This document shows positions 14,496-31,859 of a stretch of 44,222 bases of DNA, piece after piece. Where the stretch lies: positions 1 to 44,222 of the IMG/VR virus record IMGVR_UViG_3300012017_001125. The stretch is one strand, 5' to 3'. This DNA is from a virus. Each line of letters begins with the position of its first letter. Position 1 is the first letter of the stretch. The position numbers were made by a program, and so were the translations under genes. Below the pieces are notes generated by a model. That model searched no databases, had not been told where the DNA came from, and worked only from the letters and a program-made list of their open reading frames with translations.

Positions 14496-16106
14496 TTATA
14501 AGGTGACTGCTCCTCCTCCTGCTTCTTCTTCTCCGCCTTCTTCTCCTCCCTCTTTCTTAGCTTTTTCTGCCTCTTTTTCTGCCTTTTCTTTATATCTCTG
14601 ATTCATTTTTATTTGATCTGGATTCATTCCTAAGAATCTCTGAACTAAGAAATCAGGATCAAAATATCCTTTTTCTTCCTCACCAATCTTAATTTTTAGC
14701 TCTTTTAATCCGTTTATAAATTCAGTTCTTTTTGTAAATCCAGTAAGTTCCACCATTTCTTCAAACTCACTATCCCTGTTATAATTTAATCCTATGTTTG
14801 CTTTAAATCCTTTATCTCTAGATAGCTCCGGATAGTCTAAACACATTTGAATATAAAGGGGTTTTACTAAAATCTCTTGGAATATAGATCTTAGCCTTCT
14901 TAAAAATTTCTCGAATCTTATCTCGTCTCTTTCTAGTTGATCTATACTAGTCTGATAATTTCCAGGAGTTGTATTTTTAGAAGCAAATCTAGCATAAGGG
15001 ATTTTAGAATCCATTTTTAATTTATTGAAGAAGTATACTACATTCTCCATTACGTTAAAGTCCGGTCCACTTGAATTAAGTGACGATATATCTGGGGTTT
15101 GCCCGTCCTTTTCGGGAAAAAGATAATTTTTATAAAATTGAACTTTAGGCCTTCCGTTTACTGTTAATTCCCCCGATGAATCATTAATAGATATATCTTC
15201 CTTGTAATTGGACATTAGCTGGCCAAGTGTTTGCATTGCTTTTTGTGGAGATTGACTACCAATAGGAATAATAAATTTTAAACGATAAGATGAATTCATT
15301 ACGTTCCAGATAATTCTGGAATTCTCCATTATTCTTAAAATATTATATGACCGAACTAATCTTTCTATATAGCTAACCCTAGAGATAGTATTTCCCTTAG
15401 CGTAAGAAATATAAATTATCTGTTCATTAGTTAGTTTTCTTGTCATTTGTGGATTCTTTGGGTATTGGATCCAAAATTGTCTATATTCATTTTCTGCCAC
15501 TTTCTCTACTACTGGTTGAAGAGAAGTAGGGTCAAGTTCTTTAAATCCTATTATCTCTCTTCCTTTATTGTCATAAATTATCTCAAATGCTAAAAATCCA
15601 TCAATTAAAAATTGCTTAAAATACTGCCAACCAAGAATTGTATTTTGAAAACCAAAAACATTGTATATTCTATTATAATGGGATGATATTTTATCCTTAA
15701 TCTTATCTTTTAAATCTAAATTAACGAAAGATGGCTGAGCGAAATAATTACGATCATCATATACTATCGATTCATCAGTTATTGTATCTAGAATAAACTC
15801 GATCTCACCATTTAACGAAAACTTCCTTAAATAATTTCTTTTCTCGATATAGTCCCTATCAAAATAAGCAATATATTTTCTTACTTTGGTATCTTGATAA
15901 GATGCTGTCCATTGAAAAGCATCATTCTGTGTAAATCCACTTCCTTCTTGGTTAAAAAAATATCCCTCCGTTTTACCAATAGCCTGTGAATTTCTAACAA
16001 CCATATCATCATATTGCATCCCAAATTTTGCAACATTAGAAAGGTTCTTCAGGATATTACCTAAAGCTGATTGATTTGGTTTTAAAAAATCTAAAAATCC
16101 TGCCAT
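14496..16106 (-). CDS. 20: Portal protein, gp20-like, second of two paralogues
   Basis: This is a gp20-type portal, the ring at the packaging vertex. It carries the family landmarks FKELDPTSLQPVVEK, IIYISYAKGNTISRVSYIER, YNILRIMENSRIIWNVMNSS and RDEIRFEKFLRRLRSIFQEI, matching T4 ELRRLDPRQVQYV, YRITRAPDRRVWYVD and ITRDELTFAKFIRELQHKF. It is 536 aa against 524 in T4. The C-terminus is a Lys/Glu-rich coil ending EEAGGGAVTL. The neighbouring upstream gene encodes a clear homologue with the same order of motifs. The start is ATG at 16106, MAGFLDFLKPN. Confidence 0.93.
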   Translation of the reverse strand: MAGFLDFLKPNQSALGNILKNLSNVAKFGMQYDDMVVRNSQAIGKTEGYFFNQEGSGFTQNDAFQWTASYQDTKVRKYIAYFDRDYIEKRNYLRKFSLNGEIEFILDTITDESIVYDDRNYFAQPSFVNLDLKDKIKDKISSHYNRIYNVFGFQNTILGWQYFKQFLIDGFLAFEIIYDNKGREIIGFKELDPTSLQPVVEKVAENEYRQFWIQYPKNPQMTRKLTNEQIIYISYAKGNTISRVSYIERLVRSYNILRIMENSRIIWNVMNSSYRLKFIIPIGSQSPQKAMQTLGQLMSNYKEDISINDSSGELTVNGRPKVQFYKNYLFPEKDGQTPDISSLNSSGPDFNVMENVVYFFNKLKMDSKIPYARFASKNTTPGNYQTSIDQLERDEIRFEKFLRRLRSIFQEILVKPLYIQMCLDYPELSRDKGFKANIGLNYNRDSEFEEMVELTGFTKRTEFINGLKELKIKIGEEEKGYFDPDFLVQRFLGMNPDQIKMNQRYKEKAEKEAEKAKKEGGEEGGEEEAGGGAVTL

Positions 16107-16128: not shown

Positions 16129-17754
16129 TTAAGTTGCAGGAGCCGTTTCTTCTTCAGTTGTTTCCTCTCCTTCTGCAGGTTTAGCTTCTTCCGCTTCGCC
16201 TTCTTTCCCTTTTTCTTTTTTTTCTTTTGCTTTTCTTTTTAATGCCTCTTTGTTAGCATCAATATCTTGCTTAGAAATTCCTAGATATGTTTCTATAAGG
16301 AAAGCATTAGAGAAAAATGGTTTTTCCTCATCCCCCATAATACCTCCTAAAGCAGCTACCGCTTCTTTTCTTTTGTTTATTATATCAATCTCCTGATTTA
16401 ATTTAAATGGATTATCTGAGAAATAGTCAATACCTAATTGGCTCTTAAACATAAAATCGTCTTCCAATTTAGGATATTTATTTACCATTTGCAACCAAAG
16501 CGGTTTTGTTATTATTTCCTGAAACATTGATCTTAATCTTGAAATAAATTTTGCGAATCTTATTTCTTCTTTGTCTAATCCTTCTGCCCCGTTAGAATAT
16601 GGTGATGTTGTACCGCCATCTGGATTATGAAATCTTGAAGGAGGGACCTTAGATTCAAGTATAAATTTATCAAAGAAATATGCTAAAGGAGCTGGGTCAT
16701 TAAGATTTGGTCCATCTGTTGTTATAGGTTCTATGGAAGGTGTTCCGTTAACACCAGAAGGCATTAGATAATTCTTATAAAATTGTATCTTTGGTCTTCC
16801 GTCTACGCTTAATTCCCCGCTCTCATCATTTAATTGAATATCTTCTTTATAAATGCTCATTAATTCACCTAGAGTTTGCATACCTTTTTGCTGGGACTTA
16901 CTACCAATAGGAACCGTCATCTTTAATTTAAAAGAAGCATTCATTACTGACCAAATTACCCTCGTGTATTCTATAATTCTAAGAATATTGTAAGGTCTTA
17001 TTAGTCTTTCTATATAACTTACCCTAGATACTGCGTTACCCTTAGCGTACGAAATATAAATTATCTGCGGATCATAAAGAACTCTTTTTTTCTTAGGATC
17101 CTGAGGATATTGTGTCCACGTATTAACAAAAGATCCATCTATTTGTTTCTCTACACTAGGTATTAGTGTTACTGGGTCTAATTCTTTAAATCCAACTATT
17201 TCTTTACCCTTATCATCATAAATAATTTCAAAAGAAAGAAATCCATCAATTATAAATTGTCTAAAATATTGCCATGCTGTAATATCATCAGAAAATCCCC
17301 ATACGTCATATAGTTTTTTAAATACATCATATAGATCATCCTTTAACTTTTCGTTAATGTCACTGAGATCAATAAAATCAGGATATGCGAAAAAATTAGC
17401 AGGATCATAAGAAATAGACTCGTCACATATAGTATCTAAAATCCATTCTATTTCAGGATTAAGAGAAAACTTTCTTAAGTATTCCCTTTTGCCCTTATAA
17501 TCCTTATCGAAATATCCAATAAATTGTCTGGATGATATATCCTGCTTAGCAAGAGTCCAGAGCATGCTTTCGTCCTCTACGTTGGATTTATTCTTATTTA
17601 AAAATGATGCCTCGGTTACCCCAACAGCTTGAGAGTTACGTATGACCATGTCATCGTATTTCATACCGAAGGTACTTAACTTTCTTACGGAATCCCGGAT
17701 TCTCTGTATAACAGGAGTTTGTCCAGGATTATTATTTTCAACAAATCCAGCCAT
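16129..17754 (-). CDS. 20: Portal protein, gp20-like, first of two paralogues
   Basis: The same gp20 landmarks as in the adjacent gene are present: FKELDPVTLIPSVEK, IIYISYAKGNAVSRVSYIER, YNILRIIEYTRVIWSVMNAS and KEEIRFAKFISRLRSMFQEI. The two proteins align almost end to end (541 and 536 aa). They differ most in the N-terminal 40 residues, around residues 330-380, and in the acidic C-terminal tail (here EEAKPAEGEETTEEETAPAT). Only 22 bases separate the genes, so they are co-expressed. Whether both enter one dodecameric ring is not known. Genes for gp4 and gp55 homologues lie just upstream. Confidence 0.93.
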   Translation of the reverse strand: MAGFVENNNPGQTPVIQRIRDSVRKLSTFGMKYDDMVIRNSQAVGVTEASFLNKNKSNVEDESMLWTLAKQDISSRQFIGYFDKDYKGKREYLRKFSLNPEIEWILDTICDESISYDPANFFAYPDFIDLSDINEKLKDDLYDVFKKLYDVWGFSDDITAWQYFRQFIIDGFLSFEIIYDDKGKEIVGFKELDPVTLIPSVEKQIDGSFVNTWTQYPQDPKKKRVLYDPQIIYISYAKGNAVSRVSYIERLIRPYNILRIIEYTRVIWSVMNASFKLKMTVPIGSKSQQKGMQTLGELMSIYKEDIQLNDESGELSVDGRPKIQFYKNYLMPSGVNGTPSIEPITTDGPNLNDPAPLAYFFDKFILESKVPPSRFHNPDGGTTSPYSNGAEGLDKEEIRFAKFISRLRSMFQEIITKPLWLQMVNKYPKLEDDFMFKSQLGIDYFSDNPFKLNQEIDIINKRKEAVAALGGIMGDEEKPFFSNAFLIETYLGISKQDIDANKEALKRKAKEKKEKGKEGEAEEAKPAEGEETTEEETAPAT

Positions 17755-27716: not shown

Positions 27717-29318
27717 TTAAATTCTTTTTGAATTTGGTCTGAACGGGGATTCCGTAGAGGATACCATCAATGGTCCCTCTAATAGGGATGCTATTCTATA
27801 TAATATTGACTTCATATCATCTATATCCGTTTTTGATAGATTTGTTTCATTCTTATTGGGGGTTTGCCCAGTAGTTGATTCGGGTTTTAATTTATCTGCT
27901 TCACCTTTATTATTAACTATAGATTCGCTTGGATTGGTCTTAATATTTTCTGATGTTCCAGGATCATTTAATATAGCGTTGTCCGATTTTTTTTCCTCTG
28001 ATTCTATTTTTTTAGGGTCTATTTTTTTAAGGGGGAGTACATCTGAAATTAATTTTGTACCATCCGAGTTATCTACAGATGGCTTATCGTCTTTAAATAG
28101 TTTTGATTCCGATAGTTTATCTAAACCACTCTTAATTCCTATATCTGATGCTTTTTTTAATAATGGGTTATTTATCTTTATGTTTTTAGAAAGAAATTCT
28201 GACGCCTTTCCAGTAATTCCAGAAATATCCATGCCTTTTAAAGCCTCCATTCCAGATTCTTTCAAACCCCCTATTAAACTGCTAAATTTACCCCCACCCT
28301 CCGCTTTATTTTCTAACCTTTCTGCTTTTTTTTCAGTCCTAGATTTATCTTTAGCTATTTGTTTTTCTGTTTTACCTTTTTTTTCACTAAGATTTTGATC
28401 CGCACTAATTAATTTTTCATTAGATAAAACATTATTTCCTTCTTCCAATTTAACAACCTCCGGTCCTTTTTCACCAACCAGATAGCTTCCCGTTTTATCG
28501 ATTGTTCCGCCTTCGGCAAATGCACCTAATATTTTCTTACCAAATCCACCCGATAATATATCCTTTGCTTTACCACCAGCCCCCTTTACTTTATCAGTAA
28601 TATTTTTAAATTTCTCTCCCGGTAGATCAACACCTAATTTTTCAGTTACACCACCTAAGTCTTTTGTGAGCCCCTTTATTCCACCAAATGATCCTTTTAT
28701 GCTCTCAAAACTTTTAGGGATATCTTTTAAACTTTTTATATCTCCTATGCTTTTACGTATTTCACTAAATGATTCAGTTGCTCCTTTAAAATCCTCTCCC
28801 ATCTTCTTACCAAATCCACCCGATAATATATCCCCTACTTTACCACCAGCTCCTTTTACTTTATCACTAATATTTTTAAATTTTTCACCTGGTATATCAA
28901 TACCTAATTTTTTAGTTATACCACCTAAGTCTTTTGTGAGATCCTTTATTCCACTAAATGATTTGGTTATACCCTCCAAACTTTTAGGAATATCTTTTAA
29001 ACTTTTTATATCCCCCAGGCTTTTACCTATTTCACTAAATGATTTGGTTGCTCCTTTAAATTCATCCCCTATTTTCTTAAAATCTAATTCTTTAATGTTC
29101 TTAGTAATATCACCAAACCCTTCCGATAATTCATTAAAGTTTAGATTTTTTAAATCCCCACCTAATTTAGTTATAGTGTCCTTTAAATTTTTATCAGTAT
29201 CCTTATTCGATTTTTGCAATTCTTCGTTGGTATTGGTATTTGTTTTTACCACACCGGTCAGTTTCTCTATATTTCTACTGAGATCCAGCATCATAGCTGT
29301 TAGTTTAGGATCTGACAT
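27717..29318 (-). CDS. Tail tape-measure-like protein
   Basis: The 533 aa protein carries the segment FAEGGTIDKTGSYLVGEKGP (residues 267-286), the GGxxxxxxxxLVGExGPE motif common in tape-measure proteins of tailed phages. Residues 83-262 are two tandem 90-residue units, and the whole N-terminal half is a Gly/Lys/Ser/Asp helical repeat pattern. A helical domain follows, with a disordered Asn/Ser/Pro-rich part and a final hydrophobic helix (ILYRIASLL). It is downstream of the gp26-like gene, the usual place for a tape-measure gene. A tape measure sets tail length; this one is short for a tail with a full-length sheath. Confidence 0.7.
   Translation of the reverse strand: MSDPKLTAMMLDLSRNIEKLTGVVKTNTNTNEELQKSNKDTDKNLKDTITKLGGDLKNLNFNELSEGFGDITKNIKELDFKKIGDEFKGATKSFSEIGKSLGDIKSLKDIPKSLEGITKSFSGIKDLTKDLGGITKKLGIDIPGEKFKNISDKVKGAGGKVGDILSGGFGKKMGEDFKGATESFSEIRKSIGDIKSLKDIPKSFESIKGSFGGIKGLTKDLGGVTEKLGVDLPGEKFKNITDKVKGAGGKAKDILSGGFGKKILGAFAEGGTIDKTGSYLVGEKGPEVVKLEEGNNVLSNEKLISADQNLSEKKGKTEKQIAKDKSRTEKKAERLENKAEGGGKFSSLIGGLKESGMEALKGMDISGITGKASEFLSKNIKINNPLLKKASDIGIKSGLDKLSESKLFKDDKPSVDNSDGTKLISDVLPLKKIDPKKIESEEKKSDNAILNDPGTSENIKTNPSESIVNNKGEADKLKPESTTGQTPNKNETNLSKTDIDDMKSILYRIASLLEGPLMVSSTESPFRPNSKRI
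28533..29072 (-). repeat. Tandem 270-bp duplication (2 x 90 residues) in tape measure
   Basis: Residues 83-172 and 173-262 are two copies of a 90-residue unit beginning near (D/E)-x-FKGAT(K/E)SFSEI and ending ILSGGFGKK. They align without gaps and share GDIKSLKDIPKS, TKDLGG, PGEKFKNI and DKVKGAGGK. Removing or adding a unit would change the ruler length. Confidence 0.92.
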
Positions 29319-29337: not shown

Positions 29338-29601
29338 TCACTTGGCTGAAAAATTAAATAATTGGGTAACCCCGCTTTCGGCCTGTGCTTCTGTATTTTT
29401 TTTCTCTATGGTATCATTTAGTTTATCTATCCATATTTGATATTCATAAAAAGGAATAGATTCCAGCCAATTTGGATCTATCTTATGTTCATACCAAAGT
29501 CTAAATTTAATATCAAAGAAGTTCTCTAAAGATATCTGAAATAAGGAAAAGAGATCTGATCCCTCCGGGAAAGTTAATATCAGCGATGACCTCCCCTTCA
29601 C
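29338..29601 (-). CDS. Small baseplate/tail assembly protein or frameshifted extension
   Basis: The frame can start with GTG at 29601 and overlaps the end of the upstream 370 aa gene by 89 bases in the +1 frame. Residues 22-60 read SISLENFF-like text and then FRLWYEHKIDPNWLESIPFY, the pattern of small proteins encoded just before tape-measure genes. The overlap region of the two frames encodes similar motifs (NFPGG in one, FPEGSDLF in the other), so the true product may be a fusion made by +1 frameshifting or the two frames may have been split by an indel. It is followed by the tape-measure gene 19 bases later. Confidence 0.65.
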   Translation of the reverse strand: MKGRSSLILTFPEGSDLFSLFQISLENFFDIKFRLWYEHKIDPNWLESIPFYEYQIWIDKLNDTIEKKNTEAQAESGVTQLFNFSAK

Positions 29602-30625
29602 CGCAAATATAGCATTTATGTTTAGCCTCCAATTTTGTTCCTATTTTAATCTTTTCAGAAAGTCCGAAATACAAACTATATTCTTCTTTCGTCCAGAAAT
29701 CCGATTCCCTTAATTTTAATTTAATTTTATCAAAAGTTAAATTTCTCCATTCGTTAAAAATAAAAGGGGCAATCTGAATAAATCCCTCATCGATCTTGTT
29801 ATTTATAGAATATTCTTCCCTAATAAAATCCGAAATAGCCTGGGTAACACCTATACTGGGAACGAACATTTCTATATTTTTATTAGTTCTCTTAATAGTA
29901 AAAATAAAGCTTCTTGTATCGTTATTATAATATTTCAAAATATCACCCTCTATTTCATATGAGTTTAAAACACCTGTTCTTAACTCTAATCCCTCGTTAA
30001 TAGTACATTCTGGTGTTTCTTTACATTTTTTCTTTGTTTTAAGTATAATAGAATTTTCTCCTCTTACAAATGTTAAATCCCTTATAGCCATAATAACAAA
30101 AAATCTATCCTCTTGTTTTAAATCTTTATACGAAACTACACCTTCCTGAGCAAATTCCATTCTAAAGCATCTATCTAAGATATAACTAAGTTTTTCTTCT
30201 ATGCTTAAATTATCGTCATCATCTATCGTAGAAAAATGTCTGATTTCTCTTACCTCAGCAGCTCTTATTGCAACTCTTGTTTTATCTGGATAAAACATTC
30301 CTTTAGATGGTAATATATTAACCGGGAGGTTCTTCCAGCCGTTATCAAATGATGGAGATTCTGGGATATTCTGAGCCTTGCCTAAAGAATCCTTATTTAA
30401 ACCCTTATCTGGATTTACTATATTTAATTTCTTTTCGATAGGTTGTTCCCTTTCTGGTTCAGTATTATTAATGATCTGACCATTCTCGATTTCAGATTTA
30501 ACCCCTGCCTCTTTTTCTATTGTTACTACCGATGATTCTCCTTTATTTATATGATCATCATATTCAATTCCACCTTCTATTTCTTTCATTCTTAAGATCT
30601 CCCCGGGGGATAGTTTATTTTCCAT
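29513..30625 (-). CDS. Baseplate hub or tail-assembly protein, gp26-like
   Basis: Residues 1-95 are disordered and acidic. The domain from about residue 99 starts LPVNILPSKGMFYPDKTRVA, then VREIRHFSTIDDDDNLSIEE and LDRCFRMEF, a pattern I associate with T4-like baseplate hub (gp26) relatives. The match is moderate and from memory. A zinc-ribbon-like HKCYICGEGEV is at residues 334-344, near the C-terminus; only one Cys pair is present before the stop. The stop TGA follows a CTT codon. The downstream overlapping frame may continue this protein. The start is ATG at 30625. Confidence 0.65.
   Translation of the reverse strand: MENKLSPGEILRMKEIEGGIEYDDHINKGESSVVTIEKEAGVKSEIENGQIINNTEPEREQPIEKKLNIVNPDKGLNKDSLGKAQNIPESPSFDNGWKNLPVNILPSKGMFYPDKTRVAIRAAEVREIRHFSTIDDDDNLSIEEKLSYILDRCFRMEFAQEGVVSYKDLKQEDRFFVIMAIRDLTFVRGENSIILKTKKKCKETPECTINEGLELRTGVLNSYEIEGDILKYYNNDTRSFIFTIKRTNKNIEMFVPSIGVTQAISDFIREEYSINNKIDEGFIQIAPFIFNEWRNLTFDKIKLKLRESDFWTKEEYSLYFGLSEKIKIGTKLEAKHKCYICGEGEVIADINFPGGIRSLFLISDIFRELL
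29561..29572 (-). promoter_or_regulatory. Candidate +1 ribosomal frameshift site
   Basis: The coding strand reads TTT CCC GGA GGG here in the 370 aa frame. A +1 slip on CCC would join DINFP to EGSDLFSLFQ of the overlapping frame. A Shine-Dalgarno-like GGAGG follows. A second candidate is CTT TGA at the stop codon (29513-29518), the bacterial prfB-type site. Confidence 0.4.
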
Positions 30626-30712: not shown

Positions 30713-31288
30713 TTAGATAAACGTATCTTCCCAGTAATCACAGATCCAACTAGCAGTAATATTATATATTGCCGGGGTCTCGTAATCCAATTCCATGGCA
30801 TTTACAGCTTCACTTAAAAAGCAAGAAGGAATTCTTATTCTTCTAAAAACGTCTCCCCTTTTATTAAATACTTGAATTACCATAGATCCGACATAATCAG
30901 ATTTAATACCCATAGCTCCAGTTAAAGGGTTATAAATTAAATCCGACCATTGTCTTAATATTTTATAAACAGTCATAGAATTTTGATCATTAAGGTTGAC
31001 CTCGAATTCCATAGAAAGTGTCATATCTGAAGTAGAAGGCTCACCTCCTGCATATCTTCTCGTAGCAAATTTATAGTTTTGCTCTATAGTTGCTGAAGGA
31101 GAAATATCTACAGTTAAACCTGTTATAGACTTAACCTGTTGAGCTAATATACCTTCCCCATTAAAAGTAGTAGCTGAGTCTACTATTCCTGACGGAGGAT
31201 TTATTATAACCTCAAACTGATTTAAATAAACAGGTTCAAAGTTACTTATACCTGCTTTTGAATTGCTAAAATGTGGTAGTCCTGCCAT
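30713..31288 (-). CDS. 19: Tail tube protein, gp19-like, second paralogue
   Basis: The protein shares with its neighbour the opening MAGL(P/S)HFSNS, then EPVYLNQFEVIINPP, LRQWSDLIYNPLTGAMGIKS and the ending CDYWEDTFI. The last part matches the T4 gp19 ending ALDYWE. Tail tube proteins stack as hexamer rings inside the sheath. Length is 191 aa against 163 in T4. It is 16 bases from the other tube gene and followed by a terminator. N-terminal residues 40-90 differ most from the paralogue. Confidence 0.9.
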   Translation of the reverse strand: MAGLPHFSNSKAGISNFEPVYLNQFEVIINPPSGIVDSATTFNGEGILAQQVKSITGLTVDISPSATIEQNYKFATRRYAGGEPSTSDMTLSMEFEVNLNDQNSMTVYKILRQWSDLIYNPLTGAMGIKSDYVGSMVIQVFNKRGDVFRRIRIPSCFLSEAVNAMELDYETPAIYNITASWICDYWEDTFI

Positions 31289-31304
31289 TTATTTAAATTC
31301 TTTT

Positions 31305-31859
31305 TTATAAAAATAGGTCTTCCCAATAGTCAACTGCCCATACCATATCATCTATCTTGTATAGATCAGTTGATGTATAGTTTAGGTTCATTGGAGAGAT
31401 TGGCTTTGTAAGAAAGCAATCTTTACAAGTAATCCTTCTAAAAACATCTCCTTGTTTATTAAAGATGTTAACTACTACAGTTCCTACATAATCATTCTTT
31501 AATCCCATTGCTCCTGTTAGAGGATTGTAAATTAAATCAGACCATTGTCTTAATGTTTTAAAAACATACATTGAGTTATCGTCATTTAAATTAACCGAAA
31601 AACTAACGCTAAGGTCAAAGTATGTCTGATCTGGTTTAGCACCTGCGTAATTTCTTTTAGCAAACTTAAATTTTTGGGTAGCTAATCCTGGATTTTTATC
31701 CAAAGAAAGTCCACTTACTTTGGATACATGTTGAAGTAATATCTCGCCTCCAGCAACCGCTGCCGGGGGAATAATAGTAACCTCAAATTGATTCAAATAA
31801 ACAGGTTCAAGCCTATTTATTGATGATAACGAATTTGAAAAGTGGGATAATCCTGCCAT
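31305..31859 (-). CDS. 19: Tail tube protein, gp19-like, first paralogue
   Basis: The 184 aa protein has MAGLSHFSNSLSSINRLEPV, then NQFEVTIIPPAA, LRQWSDLIYNPLTGAMGLKN and AVDYWEDLFL. It aligns with the next gene over its full length and with T4 gp19 at the conserved ends (NLFQVEI at the start, DYWE at the end). It follows the sheath gene by 39 bases, exactly as 18-19 in T4. Two tube genes imply either a mixed tube or a specialised ring at one end. Confidence 0.91.
   Translation of the reverse strand: MAGLSHFSNSLSSINRLEPVYLNQFEVTIIPPAAVAGGEILLQHVSKVSGLSLDKNPGLATQKFKFAKRNYAGAKPDQTYFDLSVSFSVNLNDDNSMYVFKTLRQWSDLIYNPLTGAMGLKNDYVGTVVVNIFNKQGDVFRRITCKDCFLTKPISPMNLNYTSTDLYKIDDMVWAVDYWEDLFL

Follow-up and report, generated by a model that had tools for sequence, protein, structure and literature searches.

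A putative +1 frameshift at TTT CCC linking a short and a long form of a gp26/gp51-type phage tail assembly chaperone

One gene in the window, the full 44-kb stretch of the virus record analysed here, very probably yields two tail assembly chaperones through a +1 slip at the codon pair TTT CCC, to judge from sequence comparison. The gene (ORF1) and an overlapping +1 frame both lie on the minus strand. Dual coding, the +1 frame, the position of the switch and the family identity are each well supported by comparison with relatives. A preliminary description of this DNA had read the overlap as a possible +1 programmed frameshift, and that reading is now well supported, since the frame, the conservation of the site, the switch in codon phase, the absence of a start, purifying selection and homology all agree; a +1 slip at TTT CCC in a tail assembly chaperone gene ahead of the tape measure fitted every comparative test run. 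The source, a large tailed virus of bacteria, appears to make this tail-building helper in two lengths.

Gene layout and family identity

The zero-frame, short form of ORF1 (29513–30625, minus strand) comprises 370 aa and resembles a diverged gp26-like tail assembly chaperone. As described earlier, it ends at a TGA (29513–29515, minus strand), which lies 19 codons past the start of TTT; the TGA and this distance were kept in 80 of 80 loci of the window's type. The +1 frame (ORF2) is open for 100 codons from 29640 to 29341 (minus strand), with its stop at 29340–29338. It overlaps ORF1 by 128 nt and runs on for 58 codons beyond the ORF1 stop, in keeping with the original observation that it stays open there. 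The part that would be translated after a slip (29341–29571, minus strand) corresponds to the C-terminal domain of a long gp51-like form, and the predicted fusion of ORF1 with the +1 frame is 428 aa long. The sequence TTT CCC GGA GGG occupies 29572–29561 (minus strand), the site TTT CCC itself lying at 29567–29572, and the parallel segments that had been noticed in the two frames are both present (NFPGGIRSLF in frame 0 and FPEGSDLFSLF in +1). The ‘half zinc-ribbon’ seen at the end of the 370 aa frame fits a CYIC motif on a predicted β-hairpin.

Directly upstream of ORF1 are two adjacent tail-tube paralogues (30713–31288 and 31305–31859, together 30713–31859, minus strand), identified by PHROG tail tube matches, and a sheath gene also lies upstream. 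Directly downstream is a tape-measure-like gene (27717–29318, minus strand). The chaperone gene is thus placed between tail tube and tape measure, the downstream label, which goes back to the preliminary description, being plausible but its PHROG tape measure match weak (E 1e-5). Elsewhere, the window encodes two adjacent, different portal proteins, both PHROG_213, at 14496–16106 and 16129–17754.

ORF1 matched PHROG_36717 (1.7e-19) and had no match in Pfam at 1e-3. An AlphaFold2 model of ORF1 alone, as distinct from the joined product, had a pLDDT of 88. When compared with BFVD using Foldseek, this model matched homologues from PAU and Tenacibaculum (E 1e-24 to 1e-5), and the matches bearing the names ‘Baseplate hub subunit’ and ‘Baseplate hub assembly chaperone’ had E values of 1e-9 to 1e-5. 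No relative was found among solved structures, either by sequence or by the fold of the ORF1 model. PF12322 was reached by the relative L001 (9.8e-7), whilst the joined product of the relative L202 matched PHROG_150 (2.4e-10). The +1 ORF matched PHROG_634, ‘baseplate hub assembly catalyst’ (2.6e-5, or 1.2e-4 on the joined product), and the match begins within the overlap. In profile matches, T4 gp26 consisted of PF12322 alone and T4 gp51 of PF12322 (residues 1–201) followed by a C-terminal PHROG_634, so that gp51 can be regarded as the joined product's natural equivalent in a single frame; the extra C-terminal domain of gp51 is carried by the window's long form, within the +1 ORF. Assignment of ORF1 to the T4 gp26/gp51 tail assembly chaperone family is therefore well supported by these profile and fold matches. 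For T4, gp26 and gp51 are both given as hub assembly chaperones, gp51 being required for assembly but missing from the virion (PMC3004832).

Conservation of the overlap among relatives

A tblastn search found 31 phage records, and 13 divergent loci were fetched from phages, these being Lak and other huge phages, Bacteroidota jumbo phages and Sphingomonas phage PAU. Scans of IMG/VR yielded 80 loci of one group (L120–L199) and 80 of the window's own group (L204–L283), the latter retrieved through ORF2, with some contigs already among those retrieved earlier. A scan of genome contigs found no relative. The comparison of fused and split forms that had been suggested for relatives gave the +1 split in all 13 divergent loci (for Lak L004, provided that TAG is taken as a sense codon) and in the 160 closer loci, ORF2 being short in one of these, perhaps at a contig end. 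Two further Lak-type loci (L200 and L201) resembled L004 in that ORF2 needs TAG as sense and is otherwise cut short. A 297-aa single ORF in L029 (2471–3391), with a gp26-like part and an ORF2-like C-terminal tail, may be an in-frame fusion; it had no match to PHROG_634 and was not counted as evidence.

Beyond the ORF1 stop, the dN/dS of ORF2 was 0.05–0.09 against the divergent relatives, and the median for ORF2 in L120–L199 was 0.11. These low values, the PHROG_634 match inside the overlap and the recurrence of the overlap in 13 + 160 loci indicate that it is not due to chance, and a conserved dual-coding overlap in the +1 phase is what a +1 programmed frameshift entails. The probability that a sequencing error or a decaying gene accounts for the split is negligible: whilst a single indel could split a fused gene, the same split occurred in independent contigs and in divergent phages, and both frames were under purifying selection. 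Near-identical copies of the locus in two other metagenome contigs (L015 and L016) argue against sequencing error in particular, and the check for an indel proposed at the outset found no extra base in such contigs.

It is very unlikely that ORF2 is an independent small protein whose translation starts internally or by termination–reinitiation. No ATG, GTG or TTG precedes the conserved motif in L001, L007, L012, L025 and L035 or in 17 of the 80 window-type loci. In favour of such initiation, the +1 frame of the window contains a GTG at 29601, and in L012 the sequence ATGATG is found at the stop of ORF1. A conserved start belonging to the second frame, which had been named as a sign against frameshifting, was sought elsewhere in the relatives and none was found. 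Overlapping genes are common in phages, and annotators call distinct small ORFs at loci of this kind, but a separate protein would leave both the conservation of TTT CCC and the phase switch unexplained, and the domain in question is fused in T4 gp51. Small ‘hypothetical’ genes are annotated right after ORF1 in L008, L010, L011, L012 and L013 (MA9V1_007, BPT24_131, PTm1_ORF-023, MaF61 ORF156 and PAU gp94); these look like misannotated long-form ends.

The TTT CCC site and the upstream hairpin

TTT CCC was invariant and at the same place in all 160 close loci (L120–L199 and L204–L283), and its distance to the zero-frame stop was fixed within each group (19 codons in the window's group, 21 in L120–L199). 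The pair is rare, accounting for two of the 11,619 codon pairs counted in the main ORFs of the window, where CCC makes up 9 % of Pro codons. In most of the divergent loci the base after TTT is still C (the pair being TTT CAA in Lak and L001, TTT CGA in L012 and TTT CCC itself in Sphingomonas phage PAU), so that a slip-prone site is conserved across both sets. L006, L008/L009 and L011 keep the +1 overlap without a TTT_C site, and their site must therefore differ or sit elsewhere.

Synonymous change ran at about 1.1 of expectation along ORF1; from TTT onwards it fell almost to 0 in most codons. In window-type loci, zero-frame position 3 was the most variable upstream of the site (0.40 vs 0.13 and 0.12), and past the site it was zero-frame position 1, the wobble position of the +1 frame (0.117 vs 0 and 0.005); the codon phase switched within three codons of the start of TTT CCC. 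This change of wobble phase places the shift in window-type loci at TTT CCC NNN, ahead of CTTTTC and CTT TGA. The test is weaker for L120–L199, where hardly any position varies in either frame. In L001, L007, L025, 10 loci of L120–L199 and 16 window-type loci the +1 frame has a stop two codons ahead of TTT, which sets the 5′ limit of the shift in those loci.

Entry into the +1 frame at another point, by a prfB-like slip at CTT TGA (raised in the preliminary description) or by a −2 slip on CTTTTC, is very unlikely. Both CTT CTT TGA and CTT TTC are present in the window and its close relatives, but the +1 frame of window-type loci is already constrained at codons 3–8 after TTT, before or at both sites and some 15 codons earlier than CTT TGA. 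The stop context is also absent from L120–L199, which end in AAA GAA TAA or AAA AAA TAA, and a −2 slip is further opposed by the lack of TTTTC in Lak and L010. A prfB-type site, with CUU UGA and a Shine–Dalgarno sequence about 3 nt upstream, was considered and rejected, the shift lying about 18 codons before the stop and GGAGG 17 nt from TTT. Slippage of the RNA polymerase in place of ribosomal frameshifting would result in an identical protein, yet it carries a very low probability, as TTTCCC contains no long homopolymer run and the TTTCAAGG of Lak and L001 would lend itself to slippage even less.

Upstream of the proposed +1 slip site is a hairpin, GCGGUGA-AGGGGAGG-UCAUCGC (29583–29604, minus strand), whose 3′ end is 10 nt before TTT and whose loop contains GGAGG, complementary to the anti-Shine–Dalgarno sequence (29590–29594, minus strand), 17 nt before TTT. 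The GGAGG after CCC to which attention had first been drawn is present, but this upstream copy in the loop of the hairpin (29604–29583) is the likelier stimulator. The Shine–Dalgarno spacing of prfB is generally cited as 3 nt, which is shorter than the 17 nt in the window. Hosts of the relatives are mostly Bacteroidota, in which Shine–Dalgarno pairing is little used at initiation.

The hairpin had a folding z of −3.4 in the window, and the synonymous-codon test for it gave p 0.008. When codons were redrawn with the protein kept, p ranged from 0.008 to 0.11 over seven lineages (Fisher 1.7e-6), all carriers of a GGAGG-type element picked after the sequences had been seen; control windows reached p 0.05 in 5 % of cases. 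Pairing was kept at 97.8 and 96.4 %, with compensatory changes in relatives, compared with 18–65 % for slid versions, and synonymous change in the GAG GTC codons of the loop GGAGG was almost nil in both groups. No such hairpin was present in Lak or Chryseobacterium phages, and in L001 and L013 it was weak. No downstream RNA stimulator was seen (z +1.3), and a search of Rfam gave no match. Stimulation of +1 frameshifting by a hairpin located upstream is known from yeast and from a 70S system (PMC3639245, PMC6321510), which makes a stimulatory role plausible here; the hairpin with its GGAGG loop probably promotes the forward slip.

Proposed mechanism and comparison with known systems

The majority of ribosomes would read ORF1 through to the TGA and produce the short gp26-like form. 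Some would pause when UUU occupies the P site and CCC is the following codon; tRNA-Phe might then re-pair from UUU to UUC, or a Pro tRNA from CCC to CCN, so that one base is skipped. Either slip would produce an identical junction in the window (...INFPEGSDLF...), whereas in relatives with TTT CAA the two could be told apart. The slip would add 76 residues, giving the long gp51-like form with its C-terminal domain, and the hairpin with the GGAGG loop, refolding behind the ribosome, would favour forward movement. If the system works as in lambda gpG/gpGT, coating of the tape measure would fall to the short form and recruitment of tube subunits to the long one. The slipping tRNA, the role of the hairpin, the efficiency of the shift and the chaperone mechanism in the window's phage are what we infer. 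A wider reading, possible but doubtful, is that the +1 chaperone shift is an ancestral trait of a wide range of huge and Bacteroidota phages and is driven by a refolding upstream hairpin with an anti-Shine–Dalgarno loop. This would be a natural counterpart, in a phage, to the +1 stimulation by upstream hairpins that has until now been demonstrated in designed constructs.

The chaperone identity and paralogy of gp26 and gp51 were previously known (Vladimirov, Gautam and Davidson, Virology 2022, as cited in PMC10885494 and PMC12846349), and the idea that the paralogy is novel was dropped in view of that earlier work. According to later citations of the same paper, some T4-like phages have a short gene plus a long one that is fused, and poly-T −1 signals in T4-like chaperone genes are likewise reported as known (PMC12846349). 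In the literature searched, where Vladimirov et al. (2022) is represented by its citations, no report of a +1 form in these phages was found; within that literature the +1 variant appears to be new, and so do its slip site and the hairpin. If the reading is correct, it provides a compact +1 site together with an upstream RNA element that is a candidate stimulator. It would also correct the annotation of a tail gene in phages that are among the largest known, whose long-form end has been entered as a hypothetical protein of its own.

Lambda G/GT and other −1 tail chaperones also make a short and a long form by frameshifting between the tube and tape-measure genes, although lambda G/GT shifts by −1 and belongs to a different protein family. 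A 2016 review described G-T frameshifting as conserved except in T4 (PMC5009743). The G-T gene of HSTV-2, an archaeal myovirus, has an inferred +1 tail chaperone shift (PMC5009743), which resembles that of the window in its direction and in the kind of gene affected. The phage +1 shift at CCC_U in Listeria phage PSA (PMC5009743) also uses a CCC codon, but the PSA sites lie in capsid and tail-shaft genes, with a stop codon or pseudoknot next to the slip. A UUU_C +1 site is also present in influenza PA-X (UUU_CGU; PMC5009743 and its references), but there the ribosome is eukaryotic, the level very low and the protein unrelated.

The closest comparisons are within the family. T4 gp26/gp51 share with the window the PF12322 fold, a short and a long form, and the extra C-terminal PHROG_634 of the long form, but T4 uses two separate, divergently transcribed genes where the window has one gene and a +1 frameshift. 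In cyanophage-type loci (L039–L118), T_TTT_TTC lies in frame ahead of the gp26 stop in 80 of 80, with a long −1 ORF in 78; gp26 and the overlapping gp51-like ORF have the same two domains as in the window, but in the −1 phase. If the present reading holds, members of a single chaperone family arrive at the same pair of products in three ways, namely gene duplication in T4, a −1 frameshift in the cyanophage type and a +1 frameshift in the window's group, and the evolution of recoding would become testable within that one family.
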